A DNA stretch of 64,000 bases from Planctomycetota bacterium. GTDB lineage: Bacteria; Planctomycetota; UBA1135; GCA-002686595. The translations under genes and the position numbers were made by a program. This document shows, piece by piece, positions 47,126 through 56,045 of the stretch. The DNA lies in contig JAIOPM010000057.1 in assembly GCA_021413885.1 (NCBI GenBank), positions 186,001 to 250,000 of the forward strand, given 5' to 3'. The notes beneath the pieces are model-generated. The model saw nothing but the letters and a program-made list of their open reading frames with translations, did not search any database and was not told the origin of the DNA. Positions within the stretch are counted from its first letter, which is position 1. Each line of letters begins with the position of its first letter.

Positions 47126-49630
47126 TCAGGGCTTGGCGCCGCGCGGAGTCGTCGCCCAGTCGTGCTGCCGCGGATCGAGATCACGCGGGATCCGGCGGCC
47201 GAGCTCGAGGTCCAGCATCACCGTCGCGATCTCGTGCGGCCGCATCGTCAAGCGCACGCGACTCCACGGCACGCCCTCGGGTCCGTACGGCGCGTCGGCG
47301 AGTTCGGGCTCGAGCAACTCCTCGATCTCGCCGAGCGGCGTGGTGCGCGCGGCCTTCGCGATCGGACCGGGGAAGAGCACGCTGACCGTCGCCGGCCGGC
47401 CGTCGAACTCGACCAAGCGCAACACGTACGGATCGCGCACGTCGACGGCGAACGCGTGCGCGAGGTGTTCAGGCCCGCGCCGACTCTCGCGGTAGAACGC
47501 GGTCGGCAGCACGTGATCGCACTCGACCTGGATCGCGCCGAACGTCGGCGGCAATTCGCCTTCGCCGGTCGTGATCGCGGCGTCGGAGAAACGCGGTGAA
47601 CCGGCGGTGAGCTCGAGCGCGATGCGCATGCGCTCGGTGTTGGTCAACGCGCCGTGCGGCACGAGCCAGAGATCGGCGCTGAACGCGTCGTGGAAGTACT
47701 CCTCGTCCCACGCGTCGTACATCGAGAGCAACGCATCGACGCCGTGATCGGTGCGGAAGAAACCCTGGCCGCCGTCGTGGACGACGAGCAAACCCGCGCC
47801 GCGCGCCGACGCGTCGAGCACGTCGACGAACGACAACGCGGTGAACGGACGCTTGACGTCCTCGAACCACGGCTTCGACGTCGTGGGGTCGCCGGTCGGG
47901 TACTTGCGCAGATGGTTCTTGTCCGCGCGGATCTCGCTGACGCCGTACGGATGATCGTGGACGAGCGTGAAGTCGCCGAACTCCGGCGCGATCTGCGTGC
48001 GCAGGCCCGAATGCATGCCGGCGTCAGGGCGCGCGAGGCTCTCGCACTCGACGTGGATGCCGAGCGCGTCGTAGAGCGGCGCGACGTGATAACTGACGCG
48101 CATGCGGCTGCCGTAGCGACCTTCGCGCAGGAACGTGACCTCGGCGTAGTCCTCGTCGCTCTCCGACATGCTGGCCGTGCGAAAGCGTTCCGGCCGACCG
48201 TCGCGCACCATCTCGAGCTCGCCGAGCGGACGACGCGCGTGCAGCAAGCCTTGCGGGAACTCGCGCGTCCAGATCTGGCGCACGAAGCCGCTCTTCTTGT
48301 CGATCTCGACCTCGAAGTCGCCGCGCGCGAGCACGAGTGCGCCTTCGCGCTCCTCGATCTCGACCGCTTCCGGCGGATCCTCGCCGTCGCCCTCGGGATC
48401 GACGACCTTGTAGCCCCACGCCGGCACGGCGCGCGCGATCGAGCCGTCCTCGAGCGCGACGTCGCGCGTCCAACCGAGCGTGTTGAACACGAGCTGCGAA
48501 CCGGCTTCGGCGCGCACGCGATCGGCGAGGTGCTCGAGCGTGCGCGCGAAGACTTCGCTCGCGAGACCGAGCGAACGTTCGAAGCTGCGCAGTCCGACGA
48601 AGCCGCAGCGTCCTTCGGCGGTGTGGTTCGCGTGGTGCTGCGCCGCGAGCATCTCGCGCCACGCTTCGTCGAGCTCCCACGTCGGATATACGTCCCACGC
48701 CGCGTAAGGCCGACCGAAAAGGCCGGCGAGCGCCGCGACCGATTCGGCGGCGAGCAGTTGCTCTTCGCACGCGCGACTCCAACGCGGCATGTTGTCGCCG
48801 TTCTTGCCGAGCGACACGCCGTGGAAGACGTCGTCCAATGTGTAACGCCGCACCGGCGCGGGAGTCTTCGCGAGTTCGGCGATCAACTCGCCGGCGGTGA
48901 CCGGCTTCAGCTCGAAACGCGGATCCGCGCGCAGTTGCTTCAACTTCGGCAGCCACAGCGCGCTCTTGCACGTCCAATCGGGCTCTGGGATGAGCTCGAC
49001 CCAATGGACGAGCGCGGGCTTCTCGAGACTCTTCAGCAACTTCGACTCGAGGCGGCCGTCGAAATCCTCGGGCGCGGGAGAGAGCGTGAGCTCGTTCTTC
49101 GGCAACGTCGGCAACTTCGAGCCGTCGAGCCCTTCCCACATCACGAGCGACAACGCTTCCTCGGGCACCGTCGGCGTGTGCCACGTCCATTGGAAGCAGA
49201 GCGCCGCGCTCGAATAGCCCGCGCCGCGCAGGATCTGCGGGAGCTGCGGGAAGAACGCGAACTCCTCCTGCCAGAAAACGCGCGGCCGTACGCCGAACAG
49301 CCGTTGCACCGCGCGCACGCCAAAGACGAATTGGCGCACGTTCGATTCGCCGCCGTGGAAGAGGCCGTACGGCTGGCCGTAGCTCGCGCCGACGATCTCG
49401 AGCTTGCCCGCTTGCACCGCGACGCGCAGCTCGGCGAACGCCTCGGGCGCTTCGACCGCGAGCTTCTCGTAGCTGATCGCGTCGAAGTCGACGTTGCCCT
49501 TCGAGTCGAGTCCTTCCGCGAGCCGCAACATGTCGCGCGTCGACGACGGCAGCGCGTCGTAGCCCCACAACCACTGCACGTCGGTCCAGTGCATGTGGTT
49601 CGCGACGGTGTAGTAGAGCGTCTTCTCCAT
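47126..49630 (-). CDS. Glycoside hydrolase family 38-like protein with altered active site
   Basis: An 834-residue protein organised like alpha-mannosidases of family 38: an N-terminal catalytic barrel, a helical middle (from about 290) and C-terminal beta domains. Zinc-site regions are recognisable but changed. The first motif reads HMHWTDVQWLWG, giving HxxD instead of HxD. The nucleophile region before LPQILRGAGY reads FWQEEFAF, with glutamate where aspartate is usual. The later histidine is kept in AAQHHANHTAEG, but its partner aspartate is alanine. No signal peptide is seen. It may be a divergent mannosidase, a phosphorylase-like relative or a non-catalytic protein. A TACGAT box lies 9 bases before the ATG. 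Confidence 0.75.
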   Translation of the reverse strand: MEKTLYYTVANHMHWTDVQWLWGYDALPSSTRDMLRLAEGLDSKGNVDFDAISYEKLAVEAPEAFAELRVAVQAGKLEIVGASYGQPYGLFHGGESNVRQFVFGVRAVQRLFGVRPRVFWQEEFAFFPQLPQILRGAGYSSAALCFQWTWHTPTVPEEALSLVMWEGLDGSKLPTLPKNELTLSPAPEDFDGRLESKLLKSLEKPALVHWVELIPEPDWTCKSALWLPKLKQLRADPRFELKPVTAGELIAELAKTPAPVRRYTLDDVFHGVSLGKNGDNMPRWSRACEEQLLAAESVAALAGLFGRPYAAWDVYPTWELDEAWREMLAAQHHANHTAEGRCGFVGLRSFERSLGLASEVFARTLEHLADRVRAEAGSQLVFNTLGWTRDVALEDGSIARAVPAWGYKVVDPEGDGEDPPEAVEIEEREGALVLARGDFEVEIDKKSGFVRQIWTREFPQGLLHARRPLGELEMVRDGRPERFRTASMSESDEDYAEVTFLREGRYGSRMRVSYHVAPLYDALGIHVECESLARPDAGMHSGLRTQIAPEFGDFTLVHDHPYGVSEIRADKNHLRKYPTGDPTTSKPWFEDVKRPFTALSFVDVLDASARGAGLLVVHDGGQGFFRTDHGVDALLSMYDAWDEEYFHDAFSADLWLVPHGALTNTERMRIALELTAGSPRFSDAAITTGEGELPPTFGAIQVECDHVLPTAFYRESRRGPEHLAHAFAVDVRDPYVLRLVEFDGRPATVSVLFPGPIAKAARTTPLGEIEELLEPELADAPYGPEGVPWSRVRLTMRPHEIATVMLDLELGRRIPRDLDPRQHDWATTPRGAKP

Positions 49631-49655: not shown

Positions 49656-49755
49656 GTACGGAGCCAGCCTCAACTCCGCCGTTCTCGCGCGCCCGCGACC
49701 ACCAATCTCCGTTGCACCCCGCGCGAGAACGGCGGAGTTGAGGCTGGCTCCGTAC
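49656..49755. repeat. Long perfect inverted repeat (36-bp arms)
   Basis: Arms 49656-49691 and 49720-49755 are exact reverse complements over 36 bases, separated by a 28-base loop. The outer ends begin GTACGGAGCCAGCC. It lies between the stop of the propeller gene (49765) and the promoter of the GH38-like gene. It may be a very strong terminator, a REP/REPIN-type or MITE-type element, or both. No T-run follows and no direct repeat is obvious at the ends. Confidence 0.9.
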
Positions 49756-49764
49756 CGCGCAGCT

Positions 49765-51867
49765 TCAGCGCGAGAAGAGCACGCGATCACCGCTCCCGAG
49801 CTCGACCGCCAACACGCCGATCAGGAGATCCGCGTGCGTGGTGAAGGCGACACCGAGTTCCGGAGCGATCGCGACGCCGGTGGTGTACTCGAAGAACGGT
49901 CCGGTGCCGACATTCGGCGGCGTGCCGCCGTCGACGGCTTGGAACACGCCGCCCTTGGTCACCACCGTGCGATCACCCGTCGTGAGATCGACCGCGAAGA
50001 GCGCGAGGTTCGAGTAGTCGGCGACGTACGCGATGCGTGCGCTCGCGTCGACGCACAACGCGGTCGGGTTGTAGAACGAGTAGCCCTGACCGACCGTCGC
50101 GTCCGACACGATGCGCCGCGCGCCGGTGTCCAGGTCGACCGCGAAGAGGCCGCTGCCCGGGAACGTGCTGACGACCAGGAGCTCGTCCGCCGCGCGATCG
50201 ACGCCGATCCCGAGCGTGTACGTCCACAGCGGGCCGGAGCCGGCACCCGGCCCAGTCAGCAACGCGCGCGTGCCGTGGTACGGATCCAGGACGCCGATCG
50301 ACTGGTCGAAGCCGACGAAGAACTCCCCCGCCGTGCCGCGCGCGACCTCCAACGGAAAACCCTGGGTCGTCGGGCACGACTGGTAGACGTGCAGCGCGAG
50401 CGAATCGACGTCGAGGCCGACCGTGGCCGCGGCGTTCGTGTCGTTCCCGCCGATCGTCGAGATCTCGCGCGAGCCTTCATCGAAGTCGAAGCGCAGCCAG
50501 TACGGGTACGGAGTCACGCCCGAGTCGAACAGCGAGTGACGATCGCCGGTCGAGAGGTCGACCTCGACGACGCGTGACGTGGGAGGCCCTGCGTTCGAGG
50601 CGTCTTGCACCAGGAGCCGCCGCCGGTCGCGGTCGAGCGCGACCGAGCCCGGGAAACCGAATGCCGAGCCTTGGCCGCGGCGGTCGCTGCTGACGCTCGT
50701 GCGCACGCCGGTCGCGAGATCGATCGTGAACAGTTCGTCGTAGTCGGCGACGCACACGCGCCCCGCGTTCTCGTCGAAGGCCGCTCCGACCCAGTTCACG
50801 ATGTCGGGCCCCTTGCCGTCGCCATCCTGCGAGACGATCGTCCGCGCGCCGGTCGCGAGGTCGACGACGAAGAGCGCCCGGAGTGTCAGGTCGCACACGT
50901 ACGCCGTGTCGCCGTTCGCGGAGAGCGCGAGCCAGCGCGGCGCTCCGAAAGCCGGCCCCGAACCGGTCGCAGCGTCGGAGAGGATCGTGCGATCGCCGTT
51001 CGACGGATCGACGGCGAAGAGCGCCTGCCGACCGGCGTCCGAAGCAACGACGCGGGCGTGCGCGGCGTCGAACACGATGAAGCTCGGCGCGCCGAATGCG
51101 GGGCCGGCGCCGACGCTCGCGCCGGAAAGCACCGCGCGATCGCCGGTCGTGAGGTCGATGGAGAGGAGCTCCTTGCTGAACAACCCGCTCGGCACGATCG
51201 CTCGATCGAAGATCGGGTCGTACACGACGGTGGTCGGCCAGAAGATCAGCGGACCTTGTCCGAGGCTGCCGCCGGAGACCAGCGTTCGATCGCCGGTCGC
51301 GCGATCGACGCGGAAGATCGAGTTGCCGAAACCGTCGCTGACCAAGAGCTCGTTGCCTCCCGGCAGGATCGCGATCCCCGTCGGACTCGACGGCGTCGGC
51401 CCCGTGCCCTGCGCGAGACTCGAGACCTGCGTGCGCAGCCCGGTCTCCGGATCGATCGACAGGATGCCGTCCCAGAGCGAGTCACCGATGAGCACGCAGC
51501 CGCTCGCGGCATCGAAGATCGAACCGACGAGCGCGAGCGCGAACGGCCCGTGATTCTCGACGGTGATGTGCGCCGCATCGAGCGCGACGTTGCCGAGCCC
51601 GTCGGTCGCACTCACGCGTAGCAACGTGTTCCCCAACGAGAGCGGCACGGAGACGTGCCAGTTCGCGAAGCCGTCGGCCGATGTCGCGGGGACGCCGTTG
51701 ACCGACAATGAAACGACACCGTGCTCGTCGCGCGCCGCGCCGGTGACGGTGATCGTCGCGCCGTCCGTGAGCGAGCCGTCGAACGGGAAGTGGATCGCGA
51801 CCTTCGGCGGTTGGCGATCGGCGTACGGAACCACGGAAGAGGCGGCGAGGCAGATGACGGCGAACAC
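49765..51867 (-). CDS. Exported multi-repeat beta-propeller protein
   Basis: A 700-residue secreted protein with about eleven repeats of a (L/I)F.VD..TGDRT.(V/L)S....G.GP...P pattern, for example LFAVDPSNGDRTILSD, LFVVDLATGARTIVSQ and LFAVDLTTGDRTVVTK. These are NHL/YncE-like propeller blades. Before them (about residues 20-110) is an immunoglobulin-like domain (FPFDGSLTDGATITVTG). Eleven blades exceed one propeller, so two may be present. The GTG at 51867 was chosen because GGAGG lies 7 bases upstream and it begins a signal peptide (MFAVICLAASSVVP); an upstream ATG at 51933 is less likely. The ligand is unknown. The long inverted repeat follows the stop. Confidence 0.82.
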   Translation of the reverse strand: MFAVICLAASSVVPYADRQPPKVAIHFPFDGSLTDGATITVTGAARDEHGVVSLSVNGVPATSADGFANWHVSVPLSLGNTLLRVSATDGLGNVALDAAHITVENHGPFALALVGSIFDAASGCVLIGDSLWDGILSIDPETGLRTQVSSLAQGTGPTPSSPTGIAILPGGNELLVSDGFGNSIFRVDRATGDRTLVSGGSLGQGPLIFWPTTVVYDPIFDRAIVPSGLFSKELLSIDLTTGDRAVLSGASVGAGPAFGAPSFIVFDAAHARVVASDAGRQALFAVDPSNGDRTILSDAATGSGPAFGAPRWLALSANGDTAYVCDLTLRALFVVDLATGARTIVSQDGDGKGPDIVNWVGAAFDENAGRVCVADYDELFTIDLATGVRTSVSSDRRGQGSAFGFPGSVALDRDRRRLLVQDASNAGPPTSRVVEVDLSTGDRHSLFDSGVTPYPYWLRFDFDEGSREISTIGGNDTNAAATVGLDVDSLALHVYQSCPTTQGFPLEVARGTAGEFFVGFDQSIGVLDPYHGTRALLTGPGAGSGPLWTYTLGIGVDRAADELLVVSTFPGSGLFAVDLDTGARRIVSDATVGQGYSFYNPTALCVDASARIAYVADYSNLALFAVDLTTGDRTVVTKGGVFQAVDGGTPPNVGTGPFFEYTTGVAIAPELGVAFTTHADLLIGVLAVELGSGDRVLFSR

Positions 51868-51964: not shown

Positions 51965-53116
51965 TCAACGCGCCTTCGGCGTCGCCGAGTACGTCGCGGC
52001 GATCCACGCGCGCCAATCGCGGTCGACATCGAGCGCGGAGCGGCCGAGGATCGCTTGGCACGCGTCGGCGAACGAGCGCTTCTCCTTCGCCGCGCGCGCG
52101 AATGCGCCGAAGCTCTTCTTCGGACCGCGCAACAGGTAATCGACCAACGCCCACGCGTACATCTTCTGCGGCGGCGTCATCTCGGTCGTATTCAGCGCCG
52201 TGAACGCGAACACCGACGGCAACTTGCCGTCGTCGAGCGCTTGCCGCACGCCCGCCTCCCACTTGCCGAACTTGAAGTCGACCTGCGTGTCCTGCTCGAC
52301 GTAGCAGTAGTGCCGCACGCCGTCGAAGAGCGAGTTCTCGTACCAGTGCGCGAGACCCTCGTCCGCCCAACCGCCCTTGATGTTGCCCGACCAGATGCCG
52401 TTGAAGACGTTCGACAAGAGGCAGTGCGACGCGTGGTGCACGATCGCTTGATGGAGCTCGTACTCCTCGTGCATGTGGCCCTTGTCGTAGAAGAGCGAGA
52501 ACACCGGCGCGCGGCCCATCAACTTCGACTCGGTGTTCGACGGCTGCAGCGTGTACTTCGGCGACGCCTTCTCCTGATCGGCTTCGCGCGACCACACCAG
52601 GCCGATGGTCTTCGAGATGAAATCCTTCTCGACGGCGCCGACGTCGTCGCAGAAGCGCGCGTAGAAATCCTCGAGGCGATCGAGATAGAGGTGCAGCGCG
52701 CCGTGCAGATCGGTGACGCCCTTGACGTCGACCTTCGGCACGTCCCACACGAGCACGAAGTGCGCGGACTCCGCGACCGCGACCTCGCGCCCCATGAACT
52801 CGGCGATCTCCGCGGGCCGCTTGGTCACCCACGCGGCGAGCGCGGCGCGCTTCGCGTCGAGCGAGACCTTCGGGCTTGCAGCGCACTTGCACGGCGCGAG
52901 CTGCGTGCCGCCGCACGCCTTGCAGCGCGACGCGATCGAACAGAAGAGCACCTCGTGCTTCGCCGTGCAGTGCGACTTGGCGCACGGCCGACACGGCGCG
53001 AGCCCGGTGCCCGCGCACGTCTTGCAGACGTTCTGCGGCGCCGCGCGCGCGACCGGCGCGAACGCCGCGAGCGCGAAGCTCACCCACAACCACAGCGCGA
53101 GTACGCGCGAGAGCAT
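51965..53116 (-). CDS. Exported zinc-finger/peptidase-like protein, HExxH lost
   Basis: A 383-residue exported protein (signal peptide LALWLWVSFALAAFAPVARA, residues 6-25). Residues about 30-80 hold a DnaJ-like cysteine-rich module: CKTCAGTG, CRPC, CKACGGT and CKC. The C-terminal domain resembles gluzincin peptidases, but the HExxH motif reads HHASH (about residue 227), replacing the catalytic glutamate by histidine. The downstream GGWADEGLAHWYE keeps the usual second-glutamate motif. It is a paralogue of the protein at 54915 and more distantly of those at 7527 and 9025. A TAGGAT box lies 7 bases before the ATG. It may bind metal or protein rather than cleave. Confidence 0.72.
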   Translation of the reverse strand: MLSRVLALWLWVSFALAAFAPVARAAPQNVCKTCAGTGLAPCRPCAKSHCTAKHEVLFCSIASRCKACGGTQLAPCKCAASPKVSLDAKRAALAAWVTKRPAEIAEFMGREVAVAESAHFVLVWDVPKVDVKGVTDLHGALHLYLDRLEDFYARFCDDVGAVEKDFISKTIGLVWSREADQEKASPKYTLQPSNTESKLMGRAPVFSLFYDKGHMHEEYELHQAIVHHASHCLLSNVFNGIWSGNIKGGWADEGLAHWYENSLFDGVRHYCYVEQDTQVDFKFGKWEAGVRQALDDGKLPSVFAFTALNTTEMTPPQKMYAWALVDYLLRGPKKSFGAFARAAKEKRSFADACQAILGRSALDVDRDWRAWIAATYSATPKAR

Positions 53117-54914: not shown

Positions 54915-56045
54915 TCAGTCCTTCTGCGTCGGATAGGTCGCGAGCACCCATTCCTTCCAACGGCGCTCGAACTCGAGCGGGCCGAGGCCGAAGTGCTTCT
55001 GCAGCGCCTCGCGCGTCGGCACTTTGCGCCGCAGGTCGGCGCACAACTTTCCGAACTTGGCGCCGTCGAGCGATAACAGGTAGTCGACGTACGAGAACGC
55101 GACGACGTGTTCGTCGCGGAGCAGCGTGTCGGTGTTGCGCTCGAAGACGCTCGCGATCGCGGGCGCGTCGTCCGTCGCGACCAACTTGCGGCAGAGCAGC
55201 TTGTAGTCGCCGCCCTTGTAGTCGTTGTTGGTGTTCTGCTCCTGGAAGCAATAGTTGTCGCAGCGCTGGAAGCCGCGGTACTCGAACCAATGTCCGAGTC
55301 CTTCCTCGGCCCACCCGCCCTTCTGGTTGCCCATCCAGGCTTGGGGCTCCTCGTGCGAGAGGATCAGGTGCGAAACCATGTGCAGCAGATCGCGATGGAG
55401 TTGCTCGTCGGTGGTGAACCAACGCTTGTTCGCGCACGTCGAGAAGCGCGGGTGCGCGCCCATCAACTTGACGCCCGCCGGCGCGCCCTGTTCGCAGAAC
55501 GCGAGCGAGGCCTTCATCTGATCGGGATCGAGATACCACACGAAGACCTGGAAACGCTCGCGGAAGTCGGCGTGGCGAGCGTCGAGCAACGTGACGTAGT
55601 CGGCGTACAGCGCCTCCAGCCGTTGCAGGTAGAGATGCAACAGCTCGTGCGAATGGAGCAGACGCTTCTCGACCTTCAAGTCGTCGAGTTCGAACACCAA
55701 CGTGAAGTGATCGGTCGAACCCTTGCGCAGCGGCCGGCCCATCGTCTCGTCGTAACTCGCGAGTTTCTCCGCCTCGAGCGCCACGCGTTCGCGCTTCTTC
55801 GCGAGCGTCTTCAGCACCGCTTCGCCCGCGCACTTCTTGCACGCCACGAAGCCCGCGCCGCCGCAGTCCGCGCACTTCGCGACGAAACTGCAGAAGCGGA
55901 CGCTGTCCTCCAACGGACACTCGACCTTCGCGTGCTTCGCGCACGGCTCACGGCCCGAGCCGCCGCAGACCTTGCAGTTCGGAACTTGTGCGAACGCCGC
56001 GCTCGCGGTCACGAAGAGCAGCAAGACGATCCGCGCGAGCGACAT
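54915..56045 (-). CDS. Exported zinc-finger/peptidase-like paralogue, HExxH lost
   Basis: A 376-residue exported protein (signal peptide ARIVLLLFVTASAAFA, residues 4-19). Residues 24-73 hold a cysteine module CKVCGGSG, CAKHAKVEC, CADCGGAG and CKKC like the DnaJ zinc finger. The C-terminal domain has HMVSH (about residue 221) where gluzincin peptidases have HExxH, so the catalytic glutamate is methionine. GGWAEEGLGHWFE follows. It aligns along its whole length with the protein at 51965. A TAGAAC box lies 9 bases before the ATG. The flanking membrane-protein gene and the paralogue suggest a joint envelope function. Confidence 0.72.
   Translation of the reverse strand: MSLARIVLLLFVTASAAFAQVPNCKVCGGSGREPCAKHAKVECPLEDSVRFCSFVAKCADCGGAGFVACKKCAGEAVLKTLAKKRERVALEAEKLASYDETMGRPLRKGSTDHFTLVFELDDLKVEKRLLHSHELLHLYLQRLEALYADYVTLLDARHADFRERFQVFVWYLDPDQMKASLAFCEQGAPAGVKLMGAHPRFSTCANKRWFTTDEQLHRDLLHMVSHLILSHEEPQAWMGNQKGGWAEEGLGHWFEYRGFQRCDNYCFQEQNTNNDYKGGDYKLLCRKLVATDDAPAIASVFERNTDTLLRDEHVVAFSYVDYLLSLDGAKFGKLCADLRRKVPTREALQKHFGLGPLEFERRWKEWVLATYPTQKD

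Follow-up and report, generated by a model that had tools for sequence, protein, structure and literature searches.

A perfect inverted repeat between two tandem genes

The DNA analyzed here, a stretch of 64 kb that we call the window, contains an inverted repeat whose two 36-bp arms, at 49656–49691 and 49720–49755, are 100% complementary and are separated by a spacer of 28 nt. The left arm has the sequence GTACGGAGCCAGCCTCAACTCCGCCGTTCTCGCGCG on the plus strand and is recognized on either strand by the covariance model R1 (described below) with 95–104 bits, the window copy being itself among the sequences used for that model. The right arm, read on the plus strand, is the exact reverse complement of the left, and comparison of the copies showed that the loop (49692–49719) differs from copy to copy. 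Both flanking genes are on the minus strand. One is an NHL-repeat/propeller gene with a Glucodextran_B-like domain (49765–51867, in an ORF open to 51933), whose TGA stop codon is 9 nt from the repeat, and the other is a GH38-like alpha-mannosidase gene (47126–49630), whose ATG start codon lies 25 nt beyond it. The initial annotation had described 36-bp perfect arms around a 28-base loop and had placed the repeat between the propeller and GH38-like genes; the coordinates and the full complementarity were reproduced, and the ORF ends at 9 and 25 nt agree with the placement.

No comparable second inverted repeat was found in the 64-kb window when arms up to 150 nt apart were searched, the next-longest being 23–33 nt in length at 73–83% complementarity. 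The predicted RNA fold of the repeat has an energy of −100.1 kcal/mol (z = −10.3 versus dinucleotide shuffles), which excludes a chance origin. A T-run or U-tract is absent 3′ of either arm, a scan for terminator and promoter consensus sequences made no call at the site, and Rfam at the gathering threshold gave 0 matches in the window. Elsewhere in the window, the minus strand encodes a pair of similar proteins, one of 383 aa (51965–53116) and one of 376 aa (54915–56045); each has a His-rich segment and, close to the N-terminus, paired CxxC-type motifs, and neither has a Pfam match. Three PSCyt1 (planctomycete cytochrome) domains, none of which occurs in any of 14 control genomes, are also encoded in the genome, as is a 3-keto-disaccharide hydrolase/cytochrome protein; these point to Planctomycetota or to a relative in the PVC group.

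A dispersed family of palindromes and its likely transposase gene

The copy census is based on a search of the genome containing the window (a draft of 4.74 Mb in 62 contigs, 87.6% complete) and of extracted regions (the L-numbered loci), together with a profile search. Model R1, which was built from 29 copies, gave 60 matches in this genome, corresponding to 30 elements detected on both strands, one of which (C15:13842-13979) is a longer member. Fragments were found besides the 30 full copies, some of them at contig ends, and the true copy number is therefore probably above 30. Each element end consists of a tag, GTAC, followed by GGAGCCAGCCTC..., and extends over about 36 nt; two such ends are inverted around a short variable loop. 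The outer 16 nt are nearly identical between copies, and the arm length is 30–51 nt in nearly all of them. A pattern scan of contigs from other genomes, from which records of the same species may have been left out, returned five matches in unrelated phyla, which we take as chance because none of the five fits the covariance model.

The two arms of a copy resemble each other more closely than they resemble the arms of other copies. Over the first 34 nt, each copy has 0–4 arm mismatches, with a mean of 0.62/34 within copies versus 3.6/34 between copies. In the alignment, 98.5% of the stem cells pair, 10 pairs are changed on both sides, and 59 cells are compensatory versus 17 in shuffles, with 0 of 500 shuffles as high; because these cells count sequences and not events, they partly reflect the descent of whole copies. 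Pairing fell to 32–41% when the stem was slid along the alignment as a control. An isolated arm forms little internal hairpin and folds no better than shuffles, and the tag is GTAC at the position examined for the REP tag GTAG or GTGG. The core of two copies at L034 (9707-9837 and 11307-11439) is surrounded by another REP-like layer that is degenerate, their arms being perfect and 50–51 nt long, which suggests nested insertion.

A single match to PF01797 (Y1_Tnp) identified the sole Y1/HUH transposase gene found in this genome, an ORF of 363 aa on the minus strand of L043 (775-1866) with HFH and YIDANP motifs. The ORF is bounded by single inverted arms (744-773 and 1953-1982), a 30-nt TIR with the same end sequence as the palindromes. 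The TAA of a convergent gene lies immediately beside the left arm, and there are 2 nt between the end of the right arm and the stop of the gene beyond it; thus, the transposase unit occupies the same type of site as the short elements. The only NCBIfam match of the protein was the REP-associated tyrosine transposase (E 9e-15; 54.8 bits, below the curated cut-off of 80), and a family profile made from an alignment of 13 relatives had one match in PDB, 4er8, the E. coli TnpArep (E 2.4e-4). The HuH motif is THFH, the Y motif YIDANP is of the Y---NP class, and the conserved-W region reads LFRGR. A C-terminal extension of about 200 aa is present, in which Pfam found none of the named C-terminal HTH domains at significance. 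By these features the transposase appears to be of the RAYT/TnpAREP kind, most resembling subclass 2.1/TIRYT, and its intact motifs suggest that it is active. The initial annotation had raised a REPIN/MITE-type element and had proposed a genome search with one arm, in which many dispersed copies would indicate a mobile or REP element; the search gave that result, and this reading is supported by the 30 full copies and by the REP-type tyrosine transposase, which has the same arm on either side.

Palindromes related to R1 were found in 14 of 61 genomes, all within the same family. In eight relatives, inverted repeats of 16–53 nt enclose the transposase genes, several of the repeats sharing a TACSGAG core. 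As an independent test, genomes were searched with TACGGAGTCGCACACCAC, the core of the arms at three related transposases, with two mismatches allowed. There were 59 matches to the arm of its own transposase in the single-contig genome G033, 25 in G012 and 20 in G015; most other genomes tested had 0–2, G017 had 11, and the reversed-pattern control had 0. The relatives show the pattern with an arm sequence of their own. G009 contains nested, element-in-element palindromes (L085, L086 and L090) with near-perfect arms of 113–150 nt and loops of 28–32 nt, which were left unscored by R1, and its element end forms a better single-end hairpin (z = −2.2). Many G009 contigs end inside nested palindromes.

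Related palindromes also occur in G002, G007 and G019, yet their assemblies have no PF01797 match, and G017 has arm-core matches likewise without one. G002, whose assembly lacks the Y1 transposase, has a variant of its own, represented by about a dozen palindromes. One possibility is that the repeats of these four genomes are orphan families left after transposase loss. Over all 61 genomes, having a Y1 transposase is only a moderate predictor of having the element (11/15 versus 18/46, p = 0.02; p = 0.09 within the family). Y1_Tnp matches number 13 in G031 and 52 in G037, two relatives in which IS200-like or RAYT genes appear to have expanded.

Placement behind stop codons and the origin of the palindromes

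Among the 29 copies, one is inside a called gene, and the other 28 lie between convergent (9), tandem (15) or divergent (4) genes. Nineteen of the 28 are no more than 15 nt behind a stop codon, compared with 8.8% of random bases drawn from the other intergenic space of the same loci (p = 3e-14), and the median distance among stop-codon-facing copies is 4 nt. A similar placement was seen in G033 (12/24 versus 5.5%) and in G002 (9/11 versus 14%, with a 2-nt offset of the distances on one side). Genes were called with a purpose-written, simple codon-usage caller, and single distances may therefore be off by a few bases. At some junctions the element end shares bases with the stop codon of the neighbor, the sequence GTAACGG providing the TAA (L022:8135-8150, L160:2920 and L162:2665), so that an insertion may provide a gene with its stop codon or shorten its end.

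The comparison of orthologous sites points to an element that is mobile in evolutionary time. The genes flanking the copy at L026:10028-10132 are adjacent in three congeners, with 45–93 nt between them and no palindrome. The convergent pair around L026:8363-8467 is kept in G003 with 107 nt between the genes and the palindrome absent; in G001 and G002 another gene follows instead, and the palindrome is likewise absent. These two copies are the only ones with clean empty sites, at which no target duplication is evident; further searches at L024 and L031 yielded no clean empty site. At the window site, both genes are present in G003 and the palindrome is absent. In G002, the GH38 orthologue is 84% identical at the DNA level, and the region upstream of it contains a degraded sequence related to the element (67.5% over 114 nt, E 1.6e-7; 24 bits and E 0.005 with the covariance model). 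Since a decayed relative precedes the same GH38 gene in a congener, the window copy is probably not recent. If the G002 copy represents the same insertion, the arms in the window have been kept perfect over time and do not indicate recent arrival; alternatively, the G002 element could be an independent insertion. The initial annotation had read the perfect pairing as either recent arrival or strong selection. Selection may still apply, the decayed relative speaks against recency, and a third route is available, because homogenization of the arms by template switching can keep palindromes perfect without selection. Template switching has been described as able to restore and maintain perfect stems (PMC8794818, PMC8604942).

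The interpretation that we regard as quite probable is that the repeat is a copy of a dispersed, non-autonomous palindrome, a REPIN-like dimer, that is moved by a RAYT/TIRYT transposase. TnpAREP cuts single-stranded REP DNA beside the tag, and it has been proposed that REPINs serve as its non-autonomous substrates (PMC3116915, PMC8266576). The transposase encoded at L043 would act on single-stranded DNA, such as lagging-strand DNA folded into a hairpin, cut at the element ends and spread the element in trans. Copying of the element as a unit, combined with arm homogenization through template switching or selection on pairing, might produce the matched arms that are observed in the copies, and either target preference or selection might lead to their observed position at stop codons. 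In the window, the propeller mRNA would carry the RNA hairpin at its 3′ end, immediately before the GH38 start, where the hairpin may act as a 3′-end stabilizer or a partial barrier and not as a full terminator, unless the element contains the GH38 promoter. In several tandem pairs, the next start codon is only 21–37 nt from the element, which argues against full termination there. 

Two explanations can be envisioned for the position at stop codons within this mobile-palindrome interpretation. According to one, transposition occurs anywhere and copies are retained where they stabilize or end transcripts, so that the placement reflects selection and not target choice, as proposed for E. coli REP/BIME. 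The excess of copies near stop codons over the intergenic expectation in three genomes is in keeping with such retention, to which we give somewhat less than an even chance; the 4-nt median and the stop-codon overlaps at L022, L160 and L162 fit target choice at least equally well. According to the other, which we put forward tentatively and hold to be rather doubtful, a transposase of the RAYT/TIRYT type itself directs the element, together with the palindromes derived from it, to stop codons or to sites no more than a few bases from them. If this is true, the genome gains perfect, self-maintaining hairpins at gene ends, which would amount to a mobile 3′-end module.

A different hypothesis is that the palindromes are bidirectional terminators kept by selection at gene ends, their likeness being due to a shared function at the protein or RNA level and not to mobility. 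The 19 of 28 copies tight behind stop codons, the 9 between convergent genes, the very stable hairpin and the compensatory changes would all be expected of such a set. We think that it is improbable nevertheless, given that the U-tract, which follows the GC-rich hairpin of an intrinsic terminator, is absent, that 4 of the 28 copies lie between divergent genes, and that the palindrome is missing from orthologous gene ends in congeners. Neither the near-identical outer 16 nt nor the same arms around a transposase gene are needed for termination. Among 76 further 3′ gene regions of the same loci, only about 5% carry a perfect stem of at least 7 pairs, and so the palindrome is not the usual terminator of this genome. 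The local terminator that the initial annotation had offered as the alternative to a mobile element fails on the copy number (30) and the missing U-tract.

We also considered insertion into pre-existing terminator hairpins. The flanks are palindromic beyond the core by at least 4 bases in 11 of 29 copies versus 6% of re-paired flanks, as such insertion would predict, whereas native 3′ hairpins are rare and L024 and L031 gave no clean empty site. Pairs of copies 1.5–2 kb apart had suggested a composite transposon or cassette array; this was rejected because what separates the copies is single genes of varied length, and the position of each copy follows the neighboring stop codon. Integron attC sites were dropped, as there is no cassette array and the arms are perfect and not bulged. 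Finally, an assembly or hairpin artefact of a metagenome-type draft in 62 contigs, several of which end inside elements, is exceedingly improbable, as the thirty copies differ in flanks, loops and arms and independent genomes, the single-contig G033 and other draft relatives, show the same architecture.

Comparison with known systems

The role of RAYTs, which are single-strand transposases that have become domesticated, is still debated; a survey found subclass 2.1/TIRYT without a recognizable REP partner or REP-like structures (PMC6006769). Here, such transposases are paired, across a family of genomes, with near-perfect palindromes that are specific to each species and concentrated behind stop codons. 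Congeners without a detectable transposase permit a direct comparative test of enzyme recognition and insertion sites, and the same comparison tests whether the transposase, replication or selection keeps the palindromes perfect. REPs were reported earlier from Planctomycetes (PMC3733652), so the phylum alone is not new.

The element is closest to the TIR dimers of TIRtrons and to REPINs. TIRtrons are RAYT-like genes that lie between TIRs and are accompanied by families of dispersed TIRs (Di Nocera et al. 2013, PMC3733652); TIRtrons/TIRYTs largely equal TnpAREP subclass 2.1, which is characterized by NH[VYF]H and YI(E/H)LNP motifs and a C-terminal HTH extension (PMC6006769). Both systems have a RAYT-like Y1 transposase with a long C-terminal extension, long TIRs instead of GTAG-tagged REPs, and a TIR that occurs as a moderately abundant dispersed family, often as dimers; dispersed TIRs were detected with R1 in the genome of the window and with the arm core in G033, G012 and G015. 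Unlike in TIRtrons, nearly all copies here are tight dimers with matched, near-perfect arms, the end motif is TACSGAG and not GGGGWSAS, the transposase has THFH, LFRGR at the conserved W and no named HTH at Pfam significance, and the lineage is probably Planctomycetota.

With Pseudomonas REPINs the element shares a non-autonomous unit of about 100 bp in which two inverted ends and a spacer form one hairpin, compensatory arm changes, an extragenic location, genome-specific variants and a cognate RAYT gene between single inverted ends (PMC3116915). It differs in that the tag is GTAC and not GTAG/GTGG, the single end is almost without a hairpin in this genome, the whole 36-nt arm pairs, the copies number tens and not hundreds, and they are concentrated within a few nucleotides of stop codons. 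The element is set apart from REPs as a variant because neither the GTAG tag nor the single-end hairpin was found. E. coli REP/BIME with TnpAREP have in common with it the enzyme superfamily (the profile match to 4er8), the preference for regions downstream of genes and possible effects on mRNA (PMC8266576), whereas the E. coli sequences are GTAG-tagged, imperfect hairpins in mosaics (PMC8266576) and those described here are near-perfect dimers in which the canonical tag is absent. IS200/IS605 and their miniature derivatives are similar in the HUH-Y1 transposase and in that no target duplication is evident at empty sites; they are unlike the present system in that here there is one transposase copy, of the Y---NP and not the Y---Q class, and the ends are long inverted repeats and not subterminal hairpins. 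Among these systems the element is thus ordinary in kind, and what is unusual is the perfection of its arms, its placement at stop codons and the class of its transposase.
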